From a virus: a stretch of DNA of 24,444 bases. The notes beneath the pieces were generated by a model. That model had not been told where the DNA came from. It worked only from the letters and a program-made list of their open reading frames with translations, and searched no databases. The translations under genes and the position numbers were made by a program. The stretch covers positions 1 through 24,444 of the IMG/VR virus record IMGVR_UViG_3300009481_000096; one strand, 5' to 3'. This document shows positions 162 to 6,082 of this stretch, piece by piece. Each line of letters begins with the position of its first letter. Position 1 is the stretch's first letter.

Positions 162-1847
162 ATGCCCAAGATAACCTATACTGACGAGGTAGACGCGAGG
201 TTTGGCATCCCGTGGACTGATGACCTCAAGTATGACAAGGGCGAGCTTGTATGCGCGTTGAGCGAGGAGGAGATTGATCGCTTGACCATCGAAGACCCCG
301 AGCGCGCAGAGACGCTCACACGCTTGCTTATGGATCAACCTACCAGCGAGAAGGAAGATCCCATACAATGGGGATGGACTCTGCCCGGATGGAGACGGGT
401 GATGGAGAGATTCGACAAGGACAAGATCCACGTGATACTTGGAGGCAACCGCAGCAGCAAAACCATGATGGCCTCCCGTTTGCTCGTACACTTGGCTCAG
501 AGCATTCCCGAAGCGGAAATACGCAGTATGCACGTAACTGAGGAGCGCAGTATTCAAGATGCGCAGAAAACGATTTGGCAAAACTTGCCCATGCGGTACA
601 AGCGTTCCAAGAAGAAGAGCGCGAATCATAGCTTGCAATATAATCAGAAGAACGGATTTAATTCAGCAAAGGCAATCCTTCCACCGACAATCGCAGGCGC
701 TGAACGAGGAAGCACGATATATTTCAATAACTACCGCCAGTACATGGCAGACCCGCAAATCTTCGAGGGATGGTCTGCTCATGCAATCCACCTTGATGAG
801 GAAGTGCCTCAAAATATTTTCGAGACGTTACTAGGGCGCACCGCAGATTACCACGGTAGGTTGATTTTGACTTTCACCACGCTCCAAGGATGGACACCAT
901 TGATCAATAGTTTACTCAAGGGTGCGGAGACGGTGAGGACGAGATATAGCGAACTCTTGCAGAAGGAATTGCCCATTGAACAAATCTCTGCGAATTGGCC
1001 TGACTGTAGGATACATTACTTTTGGTCAGAGCAAACTCCATTCATTGATTACAAGGAACTAGTACGCACTTATTCCAAGCAACCGCAGGAGGTAAAGCTT
1101 GCCCGCCTGTACGGTATCCCGTCCAAGTCGTTCGAGGGACGCTTTCCAAAATTTCAGCGCGAGACAAACGTTATCCCACATGAGAGGATTCCGTTCATTG
1201 CCGATCCATCGCTTAACGTCACGAAGTATTTCGTATGCGATCCGGGCGGGAGCAAGCCTTGGGTTGCGATATGGGCGGGTGTGGATACCCAAGGGCGAAT
1301 CTACGTATATCGCGAGTTCCCTGACAGTACGATGGGAGCATGGGCGTTGCCCCACGTAAACAATGCCGGAAAGAGCGTGGGCAAACCCGGCCCTGGACAG
1401 AAGCCCTTGGGGTGGGGATACAATCAATACAAGGAACACTTCGAGGACTTGGAAGACGAGGAGGATATATTCGAGAGAATAGTAGATCCGCGCATGGGAT
1501 CGGCAACGGTGCGCGAGAAGGAGGGCGAATCCAACATCATCACAACGATGAGCAACCTCGGATTCGTATTTCGTCCCGCGCCAGGTGTGGACATAGAAGC
1601 GGGAATTGCAAAGATCAATGACGCTTTGAGTTGGGACGATACCGAACCCATGACCGATCAGAACACTCCTCGCTTGTTTGTGAGTGACAGATGCGAGAAC
1701 TTTATCACCTCGATGATCGAGTATAGCGGGCAATCCCGCCAGGAACATTTCAAGGATTTCGTGGATTGCATACGCTATTTAATGGTCAGCGGAGCGGATC
1801 ACGTGACCAAGCGCGACCTCATGATCACGGGAGGCGGAGGATATTGA
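162..1847 (+). CDS. terL: Terminase large subunit (DNA-packaging ATPase and nuclease)
   Basis: This is the motor that cuts concatemeric phage DNA and pumps it into the prohead through the portal. The 561-aa length is normal for the family. The ATPase domain shows a Walker A motif, GGNRSSKT at residues 94-101, and a Walker B motif with its catalytic glutamates, AIHLDEE at 208-214. The C-terminal RNase H-like nuclease domain shows the usual spaced acidic residues: D360 in VCDPGG, D443 in IVDPRMGS and D536 in FVDCIRY. The ATG at 162 is the first start after an in-frame stop near 78. The gene is followed without a gap by the queD-like gene (TGA then ATG), so the modification cassette is probably translated from the same message. 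The nuclease domain looks intact. Identity is secure; the packaging type (cos or headful) cannot be read from the protein alone. Confidence 0.95.
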   Translation: MPKITYTDEVDARFGIPWTDDLKYDKGELVCALSEEEIDRLTIEDPERAETLTRLLMDQPTSEKEDPIQWGWTLPGWRRVMERFDKDKIHVILGGNRSSKTMMASRLLVHLAQSIPEAEIRSMHVTEERSIQDAQKTIWQNLPMRYKRSKKKSANHSLQYNQKNGFNSAKAILPPTIAGAERGSTIYFNNYRQYMADPQIFEGWSAHAIHLDEEVPQNIFETLLGRTADYHGRLILTFTTLQGWTPLINSLLKGAETVRTRYSELLQKELPIEQISANWPDCRIHYFWSEQTPFIDYKELVRTYSKQPQEVKLARLYGIPSKSFEGRFPKFQRETNVIPHERIPFIADPSLNVTKYFVCDPGGSKPWVAIWAGVDTQGRIYVYREFPDSTMGAWALPHVNNAGKSVGKPGPGQKPLGWGYNQYKEHFEDLEDEEDIFERIVDPRMGSATVREKEGESNIITTMSNLGFVFRPAPGVDIEAGIAKINDALSWDDTEPMTDQNTPRLFVSDRCENFITSMIEYSGQSRQEHFKDFVDCIRYLMVSGADHVTKRDLMITGGGGY

Positions 1848-2204
1848 ATGAAAACAAAACTAACGGAAGAGTTTAGCTTTGAGGCGGCTCATAGGATACG
1901 GAACAAACGCAAGGAATATGGGGAATTGCATGGACATTCCCATAGAGTCTTCGTGACCCTAAGCGGACAACCCGACCCGGAAGTCGGATGGTTGATTGAT
2001 CAGCAGGAATTCCGTGAAATTGTTGGTCGAGTAATTGAAAGACTCGATCATAGATACTTGAACGAGTTCCTTGAGCAAACTACCGCAGAATCAATCGCAT
2101 TGTATCTATTCAAGGAGATCGGAAAGAGTCTTTGCTTTAACGAATTAAAACTTGATTCGGTCAAGGTTTGCAAAACAACCACTCAAGCGGAGGTGTGCGC
2201 ATGA
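1848..2204 (+). CDS. queD: QueD/PTPS-family protein (6-carboxytetrahydropterin synthase-like), with an altered active site
   Basis: Classical QueD turns dihydroneopterin triphosphate into 6-carboxytetrahydropterin, the second step towards the 7-deazaguanine preQ0. The 118-aa protein has the family's three zinc ligands, H15 (in FEAAHR) and H28 and H30 (in LHGHS), plus the D67-H68 pair in ERLDHRYLN. Two features are odd. The catalytic cysteine of QueD (CxxxHGH in the E. coli enzyme) is Tyr24 here (YGELHGH), and the glutamate of the C-terminal KET motif appears to be Thr110 (KTT). The segment between the first His and HGH is also about two residues shorter than in E. coli QueD. The fold assignment is therefore firm, but the reaction may differ or be slow. 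The gene directly abuts the terminase stop, with GGAGGCGGAGG upstream as ribosome binding site. It overlaps the next gene by 4 nt, in a three-gene unit ending in a DpdA-like transglycosylase, which supports a role in DNA base modification. Confidence 0.85.
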   Translation: MKTKLTEEFSFEAAHRIRNKRKEYGELHGHSHRVFVTLSGQPDPEVGWLIDQQEFREIVGRVIERLDHRYLNEFLEQTTAESIALYLFKEIGKSLCFNELKLDSVKVCKTTTQAEVCA

Positions 2205-2617
2205 TCAAAAGTAGATTGGTTTATCTTGCTGGCCCGATTTATGAGCAAGACGATATGTGTATTCGATGGCGAGATACTGCCGCGCGTTTGCTGAAGCGTA
2301 AGAACATCATGTCGCTCAAGCCGACCGATTCGGATTATCGGGGCAAGGAGACTTATGCAGGCATGGCAGAACGGATCGTCCAAAAGGACAAGGGTGACAT
2401 TGTTTATTGCGACACGATATTGGCTAAGTGTGACTTCCCGAGCTACGGAACGGCAATGGAGATAATGTTCGCATGGAGTTTGCAGAAGCAAATCGTTGTA
2501 GTAACTAACTCCAAGAGTCCTTGGATTCAATTCCATGCGGATCATATATTCTTAACTTTAGACGAAGCATTAAAGAATTTTGAGTTTCCCGACTTTGACG
2601 CAGGGGTAAGCGAATGA
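2201..2617 (+). CDS. Nucleoside 2-deoxyribosyltransferase-like protein
   Basis: The 138-aa protein has the layout of the nucleoside 2-deoxyribosyltransferase / DUF4406-like family, whose better-known members break or exchange the N-glycosidic bond of deoxynucleosides or nucleotides. Visible motifs are LAGPI at residues 9-13, an acidic segment DIVYCDTI at 66-73, and SYGTAMEI at 81-88. The glutamate of that last motif (E87) matches the usual catalytic nucleophile position. The ATG at 2201 is chosen over an upstream in-frame TTG at 2168 because it makes the ATGA overlap with the queD-like gene and sits just after a GGAGGT site (2190-2195). The gene is sandwiched between the queD-like and dpdA-like genes with 4-nt overlaps on both sides, so it probably belongs to the same pathway. 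It might salvage, clear or prepare a base or nucleotide for modification. That role is inference; the substrate cannot be read from the sequence. Confidence 0.72.
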   Translation: MIKSRLVYLAGPIYEQDDMCIRWRDTAARLLKRKNIMSLKPTDSDYRGKETYAGMAERIVQKDKGDIVYCDTILAKCDFPSYGTAMEIMFAWSLQKQIVVVTNSKSPWIQFHADHIFLTLDEALKNFEFPDFDAGVSE

Positions 2618-3255
2618 TTATTATGCCATCCAATAATTCCAAGGGCATTGTCCATTATTGGGCGGGACTCGGATACCCGGTTGGTTGGTTGTTCACCCCC
2701 GAGAATTGTGTAAGAGAACCTGTCCATTGGATGCCTTATGCAATTGATAACGGACGATTCAGCGTATGGTCAGCAGGTAAAGAATGGAATGAATTCGATT
2801 TCACAAAGATGCTGGACTACTACAACGAAACTATTCTTAAACCCCGATGGGTTGTCGTTCCCGACTCGGTAGGTAATCGAGACGAAACCCTCAGAGAATG
2901 GGACAAGTGGTATCCGATCCTCAAGCAATCATACGATCACGCTTGGGCATTCTGCGTACAGGACGGGATGACTCCCGAAGACGTACCTACTGAAGCGGAA
3001 GTGGTCTTTGTAGGAGGGACAAAAGAATGGAAACTCAGGAATTTGACTATGTGGACTGAATCCTTTGATCGAGTCCATGTTGGGGCAATAAATTCCTTTA
3101 AGGTTTTAATGCGATGCCAAGAACTCGGCGTCGAGTCAACTGATGGGACAGGTTGGTTTCGAGGCCCGAAAATGACAGAAGCATTAGAACGATATTTCAA
3201 AGTGCAGTCAGGGGAAATCAAATTACCAAAGCAAGTGGAGATGATATTAAGTTGA
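2614..3255 (+). CDS. dpdA: DpdA/TGT-like transglycosylase, probable inserter of a 7-deazaguanine into phage DNA
   Basis: The 213-aa protein resembles the short phage relatives of tRNA-guanine transglycosylase known as DpdA, which swap guanine in DNA for preQ0 or a related 7-deazaguanine. Motifs in order are AIDNGRF at residues 43-49 (comparable to the base-recognition DSGGF region of TGT), VVPDSVGN at 81-88, FVGGT at 132-136, HVGAINS at 155-161 and ESTDGT at 174-179, whose D177 is a good candidate for the nucleophile. It is much shorter than bacterial tRNA TGT (around 370 aa), and the Cys/His zinc-binding C-terminus of that enzyme is absent, which favours a DNA-acting enzyme. The start overlaps the previous gene by ATGA. 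The stop codon lies inside the -35 box of the portal promoter. The family assignment comes from recalled motifs, not from a search, and the exact DpdA subgroup is undetermined. Confidence 0.75.
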   Translation: MIIMPSNNSKGIVHYWAGLGYPVGWLFTPENCVREPVHWMPYAIDNGRFSVWSAGKEWNEFDFTKMLDYYNETILKPRWVVVPDSVGNRDETLREWDKWYPILKQSYDHAWAFCVQDGMTPEDVPTEAEVVFVGGTKEWKLRNLTMWTESFDRVHVGAINSFKVLMRCQELGVESTDGTGWFRGPKMTEALERYFKVQSGEIKLPKQVEMILS

Positions 3256-3292: not shown

Positions 3293-5362
3293 ATGTTAAG
3301 TGCCGCTGATCCCGAACTTCTATACGTCTCGAAAGAACCGGACATTGCGTATCTGTCGCAGACCTACAAGCAAACGCAATCCGATCTAGGAGAGTGGCTT
3401 GACCGCAGGCAACGCGACTATGACGTTCGTAATTGCCAATGGTCAGGCAAGTCTGATGACTTCAAGAAACACTCATCCTTATCATCTACTGGCGAAGTAT
3501 TCCCTTGGAACGGAAGCTCAGACCAAGAGGTAAGGCTAGCGGACGAGTTGATCGGATGTCGGGTAGCGATGGTGATGAACGCAATCAGACGCGCTCACAT
3601 CGTTGCGACCCCTACGGAATCCAATGACGTAGAACGAGCCTCGGTAGTGAGCAACTTCTTGCGTTGGTTGATCAACTCCAAGATGGACGAATTTTATCCA
3701 CAGATTGAACTGGGACTACAAAACCTCTTCGAGAAGGGGATGATGGTTCATTACACGTGGTACGAGCAACAAGACCTGAAACAACAACAAACGATCAAGC
3801 TTGAGGAGATTGCGCAAGTTTTGCCCGCCATTGCAGAAGTCATACAGGACGGATCAATGGATGATGAACTGAGCGAAACTCTCAAGCAACAATTCGGAGT
3901 GAGCAAGTCGAAAGGCCGAGCGATGCTCCGCGAGTTGAGAAAAGACGGTGAGACTACCGTTCCGGTTACGCGAGAAGTCGTGAGCCGCCCCAAGATCCGC
4001 TCGCTTGCGCCTGACGAGGACGTGTTTTGGCCTAACTATACGATTGATCCGCAGGAAGCGCCCTACGTATTCCACGTGGTCAATATGACCCCCGAGCAAA
4101 TACGTTCCAAGATAAATACGGAAAAGTGGGACAAGGAATTTTGCGAATCGGTAATTGATTTGACCAACAATGCGGAAGCGGATAGCAACCTATATAATAT
4201 CCGCGAGCAAGATCAGTTCGTGCATACTGACGATCAATACGTAAAGATCGTATATTGCTATCAAAGACTCTTGGACGAGGATAACATTCCGGGTATTTAC
4301 TGCACGGTATTTCATCCTGACGTTAGCGAGTCCTATGCCAAGCACCAGTTGATGGACTATGCTCATGGCAAGTATCCTTTCCAAGTAACCACGCTTGAGA
4401 AGACTTCCAAGCGTTTGTACTCGTCCAGGTCATACCCCGAGTTGATTGAATCGCTTCAGCAAGTACTCAAGGTGGAAACCGACTCTGCGATTGACGCTCA
4501 GTCATTGACCACTTTGCCTCCGATAGAACACCCCCTTGGTCGCGCCCCGACAAAGTGGGGGCCGGGTATTCGCATTCCTTATCGCACGCCTGGAGAGATC
4601 AGATTTGCCGACACCCCTCGCGGTTCAACCGTGAACGTCGAGCTACGCAGATACATCAAGGAACAAGCGGACAGATACTTTGGCAGAAACGCACCTGGGG
4701 TCGATCCCGTGGAAGCGCAGATGAAACAACAGGAAGTCATCGACAAGTGCTTCCAGCACCTCAAGCAAGTACTTGATCAGATATTCAGCTTATATCAGCA
4801 ATACGGGCCTGACCAAGAATACTTCCGTGTAACCGGAATGCAGGATATGCAGAAGTTTGCCAAGGGCAACTCCGGTGAACGCTTTGACTTTTACTTGCAA
4901 TTCGATGCCGCCACACAAGATCCAGCGCAAATGGTCGAGCGCGTAAAGGCAATAGCCGAACTTGGCGGTATGCTTGACAAGAACGGAGTGCTTGATACCG
5001 AGCGACTTCTTCAAGTTGCAGTCGGACAAATCTTACCGGGAGCGGCAGAGAGCATCATAGTACCCAAGGAAACTGCATCCCAAAAAGCAGTGGAGGAGGA
5101 AAGGCAGACAATTACCGAGATATATGCAGGCGTGCCTCCTAACGTTCGTCCGAATGACGCGCATGAGATGAAGCTTCAAGTATTTCAACAATGGTTGGCG
5201 CAACCCGACGTCACGCAAAAGGTACAACAAGATCCTGCTCTGCAAGAGCGTATACAGAACTACCTTCAGCAAAGACAGATGCAAGTCACGCAACGTCAGA
5301 ACGCTGAGATCGGAAGACTCGGAGCAGCCCCAACGCAATTCGGGGAAACCCAATCACAATAG
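3293..5362 (+). CDS. Portal protein (head-tail connector)
   Basis: A 689-aa protein lying after the terminase and before the scaffold and capsid genes, matching the size and position of portal proteins of podovirus-like phages. The portal is a ring at one capsid vertex through which DNA is packaged and ejected. The N-terminal part includes an FPWNGSSDQEVRLADELI segment (around residues 71-88), typical of large portals. Long helical segments follow, and a Gln-rich C-terminus ends near TQFGETQSQ. Start choice: an in-frame TTG at 3281 is rejected because it lies in the duplicated promoter element, upstream of the predicted transcription start. ATG 3293 has no Shine-Dalgarno site and would follow only about 5-7 nt of leader, so translation may be nearly leaderless. 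The next gene starts 12 nt downstream behind a strong AGGAGG. The portal call rests on order, size and general character more than on one diagnostic motif. Confidence 0.85.
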   Translation: MLSAADPELLYVSKEPDIAYLSQTYKQTQSDLGEWLDRRQRDYDVRNCQWSGKSDDFKKHSSLSSTGEVFPWNGSSDQEVRLADELIGCRVAMVMNAIRRAHIVATPTESNDVERASVVSNFLRWLINSKMDEFYPQIELGLQNLFEKGMMVHYTWYEQQDLKQQQTIKLEEIAQVLPAIAEVIQDGSMDDELSETLKQQFGVSKSKGRAMLRELRKDGETTVPVTREVVSRPKIRSLAPDEDVFWPNYTIDPQEAPYVFHVVNMTPEQIRSKINTEKWDKEFCESVIDLTNNAEADSNLYNIREQDQFVHTDDQYVKIVYCYQRLLDEDNIPGIYCTVFHPDVSESYAKHQLMDYAHGKYPFQVTTLEKTSKRLYSSRSYPELIESLQQVLKVETDSAIDAQSLTTLPPIEHPLGRAPTKWGPGIRIPYRTPGEIRFADTPRGSTVNVELRRYIKEQADRYFGRNAPGVDPVEAQMKQQEVIDKCFQHLKQVLDQIFSLYQQYGPDQEYFRVTGMQDMQKFAKGNSGERFDFYLQFDAATQDPAQMVERVKAIAELGGMLDKNGVLDTERLLQVAVGQILPGAAESIIVPKETASQKAVEEERQTITEIYAGVPPNVRPNDAHEMKLQVFQQWLAQPDVTQKVQQDPALQERIQNYLQQRQMQVTQRQNAEIGRLGAAPTQFGETQSQ

Positions 5363-5374
5363 GAGGACGCAGAT

Positions 5375-5488
5375 ATGCCAGGAGGTAAGGGAACGTACGG
5401 AAGCAAGGTTGGAAGACCACCTAAGAAGAAAGCAATGGCGCGCAAGAGAATGCCTGCCAAGATGACAAGGATGCGCAAGCGCAAGTGA
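5375..5488 (+). CDS. Very basic 37-aa small protein
   Basis: The ORF starts MPGGKGTYGSKVGRPPKKK and ends with repeated RM/RK residues; nearly half of its residues are Lys or Arg. AGGAGG at 5361-5366 lies 8 nt before the ATG, and the stop overlaps the GTG start of the next gene (GTGA). I recall similar short Gly/Lys-rich proteins near the portal in other environmental phages, without an assigned function. It is the first of three consecutive basic proteins, so binding to DNA or RNA inside the head is a reasonable guess, not a demonstrated role. Confidence 0.7.
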   Translation: MPGGKGTYGSKVGRPPKKKAMARKRMPAKMTRMRKRK

Positions 5489-5733
5489 GCATCATTTATC
5501 GCAAGGAAAAATTTGGCGGGTATAACAAGCCAAAGCGCACACCCGGCAAATCGAAGAAGTTTGCAGTCCTTGCCAAGGAGGGGGACAAGGTACGCTTAGT
5601 AAGATTCGGAGATCCGAACATGAAGATACGCAAGTCCGAGCCTGCAAGACGAAAGTCTTTTCGAGCCAGGCATAAGTGCGATCAGAAGAAATCCAAACTT
5701 ACGGCAGGATACTGGTCGTGCAAGAAGTGGTAA
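5485..5733 (+). CDS. Small basic phage protein with conserved Cys/Trp C-terminus
   Basis: An 82-aa, Lys/Arg-rich protein. It contains RLVRFGDPNMKIRKSEPARR (residues 37-56) followed by FRARHKCD (59-66) and an ending TAGYWSCKKW. This pattern is familiar from many environmental phage genomes, where it usually sits between portal and capsid genes. The two cysteines (C65 and C80) and aromatic residues may hold a small fold, perhaps with metal. The GTG start overlaps the previous stop by 4 nt, and only one base separates this gene from the next. Function is unknown. A nucleic-acid-binding or capsid-internal role is inferred from charge and location. Confidence 0.85.
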   Translation: MSIIYRKEKFGGYNKPKRTPGKSKKFAVLAKEGDKVRLVRFGDPNMKIRKSEPARRKSFRARHKCDQKKSKLTAGYWSCKKW

Positions 5734-5734
5734 C

Positions 5735-6082
5735 ATGCCCAAGGACGCTTGTTACAAAAAGGTCAAGAGAAGGGTAAAGGTATTTCCTTCTGCCCGAGCG
5801 TCCCAACAAATTGCAAAATGTCGAAAGTCAAAAGGTCAGGTACGAAAGACCAAAGCGGGTACTAGTCTGAAAAGATGGAAGTCCGAAAAATGGAAAGACA
5901 CGCGAACCGGAAAACCATGTGGGCAAGGAGGAAAGAACGAATATTGCCGACCTACCAAAAGAGTTTCTAAGAAAACGCCCAAGACGAAATCTGAAATGTC
6001 CAAGAGCCAGCTTGCGAAAAAGAAAGCTGAGAAGAAAAAAGTAGGCATGGGAAGACGAGTTAAATCCGTAAGGAGAAAATAA
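5735..6082 (+). CDS. Lysine-rich protein, DUF5872-like
   Basis: The 115-aa protein is extremely basic. Its central motifs, LKRWKSEKWKDTRTGKPCG (residues 45-63) and YCRPTKRVSKKTPKT, resemble what I remember of the DUF5872 family, found in phages and in large eukaryotic viruses. The N-terminal segment FPSARASQQIAKCRK fits the same family. The C-terminal third is a run of Lys/Arg-rich helix ending GMGRRVKSVRRK. It follows the basic 82-aa gene by one base and precedes the next start by one base, so all are co-expressed with the portal. A structural or DNA-binding role in the virion is likely but unproven; the family name is from memory and is less certain than the gene itself. Confidence 0.8.
   Translation: MPKDACYKKVKRRVKVFPSARASQQIAKCRKSKGQVRKTKAGTSLKRWKSEKWKDTRTGKPCGQGGKNEYCRPTKRVSKKTPKTKSEMSKSQLAKKKAEKKKVGMGRRVKSVRRK

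Follow-up and report, generated by a model that had tools for sequence, protein, structure and literature searches.

A compact three-gene cassette beside a phage terminase gene with a probable role in DNA-guanine modification

The window, by which we mean the whole 24,444-base stretch of the virus record analysed here, carries a tailed-phage gene set that includes genes for the terminase, the portal, the major head protein, a tyrosine-type integrase and an exonuclease VIII-like protein; no tRNAs or Rfam families were found in it. The initial annotation placed a queD-like, a deoxyribosyltransferase (DRT)-like and a dpdA-like gene directly behind the terminase gene, and three open reading frames on the same strand were indeed located there, joined by two inner ATGA overlaps. 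The terminase stop codon (TGA, 1845-1847) abuts the first of them, which begins at the next base with no overlap. The features of the block and its junctions are as follows.

1837..1845, plus strand: left copy, GAGGATATT, of a 9-base near-repeat at the junction, from blastn against the relatives L204-L207
1846..3248, no strand: 1,403-base insertion/deletion unit, absent from L204-L207 (blastn of the window against L204-L207)
1848..2204, plus strand: queD-like gene (gene 1), 118 aa; PF01242 (1.8e-26); PTPS/QueD fold, by alignment with E. coli QueD structures
2201..2204, plus strand: ATGA overlap of the queD-like stop and the DRT-like start, suggestive of translational coupling (from the sequence)
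2201..2617, plus strand: DRT-like gene (gene 2), 138 aa; PF05014, Nuc_deoxyrib_tr (1.7e-12); deoxyribosyltransferase/N-glycosidase fold
2614..2617, plus strand: ATGA overlap of the DRT-like stop and the mini-dpdA start (from the sequence)
2614..3255, plus strand: mini-DpdA gene (gene 3), 213 aa; predicted TGT-like TIM barrel
3240..3248, plus strand: right copy, GATGATATT, of the near-repeat, identical to the left copy at 8 of 9 positions

The block had been taken for an acquired cassette on the strength of its base composition, and it is the conclusion rather than the argument that stood. The G+C content was about 45-46% in the block as compared to 48-55% over the terminase gene, but values of 36-43% also occurred in the window, between 17.0 and 18.5 kb. 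Since other stretches of the window are more A/T-rich, the lower G+C content of the block is real but weak evidence, and we rejected it as proof of acquisition. Mobility is instead indicated by an exact empty site: in four relatives (L204-L207) with terminase proteins 97-99% identical to that of the window, the terminase and portal genes lie side by side and the block is missing. No QueD was found anywhere in the 39 kb contig of one of these cassette-free sisters (L204). The block is small (1.4 kb), and phages that carry it have natural counterparts that do not.

In other lineages, the block was located before the terminase gene, further upstream, or behind a terminase with only 31% identity. 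The order queD-DRT-dpdA was observed in about 35 of the 46 viral relatives that were found first, and it was kept even where the terminases were merely 28-31% identical. For pairs with measurable dS, the dN/dS values of the cassette genes were about 0.02-0.1, indicative of purifying selection. The three overlapping genes are real and are conserved as a unit, far beyond what is expected by chance. A deep-branching cassette (L069, 455-1895) encodes a mini-DpdA with 65% identity and a QueD homolog in which Leu stands at the position of the catalytic Cys. PADLOC yielded nothing useful. Genome contigs were searched for a prophage copy that would name the host; the sole close copy, on a contig of 4.4 kb from a metagenome bin of Verrucomicrobiota, is too weak for this purpose.

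The surroundings of the terminase gene also hold other genes for DNA modification. One relative (L210) contains a gene for an N6/N4 DNA methyltransferase between the terminase gene, which ends at 2323, and the portal gene, which starts at 3509, and this gene is preceded by a short apparent queD stub (MITRLTEGMS) that seems to represent the first codons of queD. Another (L206) contains a Mom-family DNA-modification gene (1574-2161) just upstream of the terminase gene (terL), and in a third (L037) a cytosine-5 DNA methyltransferase gene adjoins the cassette. The alternation of the cassette, DNA methyltransferases and Mom near the terminase supports DNA protection as the function, and makes the terminase-side cargo slot a place to seek further DNA-modification genes. 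A PAPS-reductase-like gene is located just upstream of the terminase gene in L207 (1831-2676). Together with the Mom gene of L206, it marks another variable slot immediately before the terminase gene; both phages are free of the cassette.

The product of gene 3 had no match in Pfam, and searches of the PDB sequences, whether with the single sequence or with a profile, yielded nothing. It matched PHROG 15826 (2.5e-26) and, weakly, PHROG 887 (0.012), which is the phage queuine tRNA-ribosyltransferase family. A structure search alone succeeded in relating it to solved proteins. The AlphaFold2 model, built from 43 homologues, had a pLDDT of 91 and a pTM of 0.88, and the best 50 matches to this model in a Foldseek search of the PDB all belonged to the TGT superfamily, with a probability of 1.00; these included human and bacterial TGT, archaeosine TGT, DpdA (7ui4), which inserts preQ0 into DNA, and the Cap10-CdnD complex (9ntn). 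The sequence contains the motifs D45-N-G, P-D84, Q116-D-G, G134-G135, H155 and D177-G-T, and an alignment with the 43 homologues and the DpdA proteins of Edwardsiella phage ZHS, Aminobacter phage Erebus and Escherichia phage phiG7 showed D45, D84, G134, H155 and D177 to be invariant. Gene 3 and the phage DpdAs hence have in common a DNG/DSG motif, a second Asp, a Gly, a His and a last Asp, which we equate with the TGT residues that act as general acid, recognise the base and serve as nucleophile. A His at the position of H155 is typical of DpdA. No Cys/His cluster of the TGT zinc domain was found in the 213-aa sequence, which argues for a DpdA-like protein rather than one of the tRNA-TGT type. 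Judged by the model, the structural matches and the motifs, the predicted product of gene 3 is a small enzyme of the TGT/DpdA superfamily. This agrees with the dpdA-like assignment in the initial annotation, and no profile search placed 2614-3255 outside the superfamily.

A DpdA of about 240 aa (phrog_887, 2e-66) replaces mini-DpdA behind the same pair of QueD-like and DRT-like genes in 12 distinct cassettes. Outside the cassette, mini-DpdA was encoded in 51 further loci (not de-duplicated), and in 31 of these queD or queC, sometimes along with queE, was located no more than about 5 kb away. We also considered that mini-DpdA might modify RNA, such as host tRNA, or some other target, so that the cassette would act in translation or in the takeover of the host and not protect DNA. 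Ranked by Foldseek E-value, the solved structures closest to mini-DpdA are those of tRNA transglycosylases, and a paralog of mini-DpdA coexists with a true DpdA in some phages, as would suit such a role. It is nevertheless very improbable, given that mini-DpdA is interchangeable with the DNA-type DpdA, that genes for a DNA methyltransferase and Mom use the slot as well, and that the protein lacks the zinc/RNA-binding domain of TGT. The phages with both proteins are phiG7 (L051, 5630-6288), R29Z (L048, 4767-5351) and Sonali (L188, 1394-2011), where a relative of mini-DpdA occurs along with an ordinary DpdA and the preQ0 pathway; the phiG7 copy extends across two overlapping reading frames and is apparently disrupted. 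Part of the family may therefore do something else, and in phages with both enzymes the additional transglycosylase could account for a second modified DNA motif.

The product of gene 1 is a QueD homolog by fold and zinc ligands, which upholds one half of the earlier assignment, while its active site speaks against the other half, a functional QueD. Similar to the 6-carboxytetrahydropterin synthase QueD of E. coli, it has the three zinc-binding His residues (H15, H28 and H30) and the catalytic Asp-His pair (D67-H68). However, Tyr24 replaces the catalytic Cys (C27 in E. coli QueD) and Lys replaces the Glu that anchors the pterin (E110); among the cassette copies C27 is exchanged for Tyr, Asn or Leu and E110 for Lys. 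The catalytic Cys was missing from 39 of the 58 distinct QueD homologs in the examined loci and retained in the other 19, and the copies without Cys were found in queD-DRT units. The full residue table showed the loss of Cys to be coupled to the Glu-to-Lys replacement without exception in all 39 distinct cassette copies. With both residues gone, canonical synthesis of CPH4 is unlikely. The dN/dS values of gene 1 were 0.06-0.11 in close pairs, and such purifying selection indicates that the gene is not decaying. Among phage isolates with QueDs that were either low-identity matches to the cassette QueD or members of known pathways, Cys was retained in most (Sonali, phiSM, RHEph06, BS162P1 and a fecal phage, L276), while another fecal phage (L275) appears to have none.

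Alternatively, gene 1 could be an ordinary QueD that raises the flux to CPH4, with QueE and QueC of the host completing the synthesis of preQ0, DpdA inserting the base and the DRT-like protein being a passenger. The retained fold, zinc ligands and Asp-His pair would fit this scenario, as would the canonical QueD adjoining mini-DpdA in other phages. We consider it improbable, since the 39 cassette copies with both residues replaced come with no intermediates, and since flux would rarely be limited by a QueD supplied alone. Another phage protein, DpdL, which Cui et al. reportedly presented in 2023 as a predicted 7-carboxy-7-deazaguanine decarboxylase, may resemble the cassette QueD in that both would be QueD relatives that tailor the base. 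As regards this likeness, the Glu-to-Lys replacement argues against an unchanged purine/pterin pocket.

For gene 2, called nucleoside 2-deoxyribosyltransferase-like in the initial annotation, the fold and the nucleophilic Glu agree with that name, but the active-site residues best fit DNPH1, a deoxynucleotide N-hydrolase. The model (pLDDT of 88) was matched by Foldseek to nucleoside deoxyribosyltransferases, DNPH1 and MilB, the closest being the nucleoside transferases rather than DNPH1. As in the enzymes from T. brucei, Chroococcidiopsis and Lactobacillus, which gave the best matches, the PF05014 fold is combined with Tyr8 and the nucleophile Glu87. Further features are Asp63, Ser81 at the phosphate-binding position and the motifs WR, DYRG and SPW. 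Glu87 and Asp63 were invariant in all 33 relatives examined. At six residues upstream of the nucleophile, the classical nucleoside transferases have an Asp that contacts the 5'-OH (Lactobacillus NDT), and DNPH1 has a phosphate-binding Ser. In the gene 2 relatives this position was Ser in 26 cases, Gly in 5, Tyr in 1, His in 1 and Asp in none, so that 31 of the 33 have Ser or Gly in place of the Asp of the transferases, suggestive of substrates with a 5'-phosphate rather than a 5'-OH. The nearest solved sequences in a search with a broad profile were YtoQ and DNPH1/Rcl, and D63, S81 and E87 were in register with DNPH1. Taken together, these residues point to 2'-deoxynucleoside 5'-monophosphates (dNMPs) as the substrates, and to an enzyme that would be more like DNPH1 than like a classical nucleoside transferase. 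The 2'-deoxynucleoside 5'-phosphate N-hydrolase DNPH1/Rcl shares the fold and has Asp, Ser and Glu aligned at the catalytic and phosphate positions, but gene 2 differs in being viral, about 138 aa in size, marked by the WR/DYRG/SPW signatures and located among genes for DNA-guanine modification.

The suggestion that gene 2 is a component added to the standard DpdA pathway was borne out by its recurrence beside dpdA and que genes in many arrangements. The gene order is queE-queC-queD-DRT-folE..dpdA in Aminobacter phage Erebus and queC-folE-dpdA..DRT in Edwardsiella phage ZHS; Rhizobium phage RHEph06 is syntenic with Erebus and has no DRT gene. Uncultivated viruses displayed miniDpdA-queD-DRT, queE-DRT-dpdA, DRT-miniDpdA and other orders, three contigs (L168, L169 and L171) contained a DRT gene with dpdA elsewhere, and HRTV-29 carries a DRT of the gene 2 group. 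No DpdA was detected with the DRT relatives in five loci (L172, L173, L175, L176 and L180), in a Moorella phage or in archaeal and Obscuribacterales genomes, which makes the association of DRT with DpdA strong but not absolute. The archaeal and Obscuribacterales relatives (L190, L192 and L193-L203) are located in metagenome bins, with no DpdA or que genes nearby.

Such relatives without DpdA, along with the wide distribution of DRT-fold genes in phages, would be in line with gene 2 being a general nucleotide-salvage gene with coincidental neighbors. This is unlikely: DRT genes adjoin DpdA or que genes in many independent arrangements, and matches to queE were present in just 344 of 50,697 phage isolate records, yet three of four distinct isolates with a DRT of the gene 2 group have DpdA. 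It is also conceivable that the DRT-like enzyme builds a modified deoxynucleotide by transferring a deazaguanine to a dNMP, which a kinase would convert to the dNTP for incorporation by the polymerase, with DpdA as a second route or corrector. The residues that fit 5'-monophosphates are compatible with such a scheme, and a gene for a deoxynucleotide monophosphate kinase (PF21448) is located directly upstream of queD in two cassettes (L013, 523-1026; L021, 4776-5312). Yet kinases of this kind are frequent among phage genes, most cassettes have none adjacent, and a DpdA-type enzyme is present in every cassette, so we regard the scheme as rather unlikely.

The genes for making the base were absent from the window, as the initial annotation had stated: the FolE, radical-SAM (QueE) and QueC families were not found there. 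Likewise, no QueC, radical SAM or FolE was detected in 21 tested records, which are possibly incomplete, while the controls were positive, and neither QueC nor radical SAM was found in six further cassette contigs of up to 38.5 kb, which may also be incomplete; contigs of 34-39 kb were among the cassette records covered. Provided that these records are typical, the host has to be the source of the base, and the modified base of the cassette is probably host-supplied. A host-made base has also been suggested for Salmonella phage 7-11 and HRTV-29 (PMC8651126, PMC6884629), the latter of which has DpdA without preQ0 genes (PMC8651126). In these singleton-DpdA viruses the base is likewise presumably that of the host, and HRTV-29 also resembles the cassette in having a DRT; the cassette differs in that the DRT-like and QueD-like genes are tied to the transglycosylase in one operon. 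With the DpdA/preQ0 systems of phages 9g, CAjan and Rosebush (Hutinet 2019, PMC6884629), the cassette shares a TGT-superfamily transglycosylase with DpdA motifs, a QueD-family protein near it and an anti-restriction context. In contrast to these systems, its transglycosylase has only 213 aa, no folE, queE or queC was found, the QueD homolog has a rebuilt active site, an extra enzyme with a DRT fold is present and the three genes form a compact, mobile unit.

We consider it moderately probable that the block is a mobile anti-restriction cassette for DNA-guanine modification in which the genes have the broad roles given here; any one precise function of gene 1 or gene 2 is less probable. In the marine phages that carry it, the block would most likely replace guanine in the DNA by a similar base of host origin and thereby shield the DNA from cleavage by bacterial restriction enzymes. 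As suggested by the observed fold and residues, mini-DpdA would excise guanine from the phage DNA via a covalent intermediate of Asp177 and deoxyribose, and would insert a 7-deazaguanine that presumably stems from the queuosine pathway of the host. The DRT-fold enzyme is predicted to make or break the glycosidic bond of free dNMPs, and would most likely release the rare 7-deazaguanine from modified dNMPs, as salvage or clean-up of the pool, for reuse by mini-DpdA. The cassette QueD would be a zinc enzyme that has retained the QueD fold but lost the pterin chemistry, and most likely tailors the host-made deazaguanine before or after its insertion. The module occupies a terminase-side cargo slot that is open to other DNA-protecting genes as well.

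A more far-reaching proposal, which we put forward tentatively and consider possible rather than probable, is that the cassette forms a branch of its own within viral DNA-guanine modification. The cassette QueD would then make an undescribed 7-deazaguanine from a host precursor, and the dNMP-specific DRT would be a general, unrecognised partner of DpdA that recycles the base or feeds modified dNMPs to the polymerase. Undetected 2'-deoxyribosyltransferases could not be ruled out according to a remark in Hutinet 2019 (PMC6884629), and the MED16 paper applies this term to DpdA itself (PMC8306585). No naming of DRT as a partner of DpdA was found in the part of the literature that was covered, and the novelty of the partnership is stated with reserve for this reason. 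DpdA systems, including host-dependent ones, were already known; with that reserve, the DRT-like enzyme and the rebuilt QueD appear not to have been recognised previously as parts of them. The cassette adds to phage 7-deazaguanine DNA modification two candidate components whose chemistry can be tested, namely a DpdA-associated, nucleotide-cleaving DRT and a QueD relative without the catalytic residues of QueD.

Elsewhere in the window, two very basic small proteins are encoded between the portal gene and the scaffold region (5485-6082), the second of which matches DUF5872 (1.6e-14).
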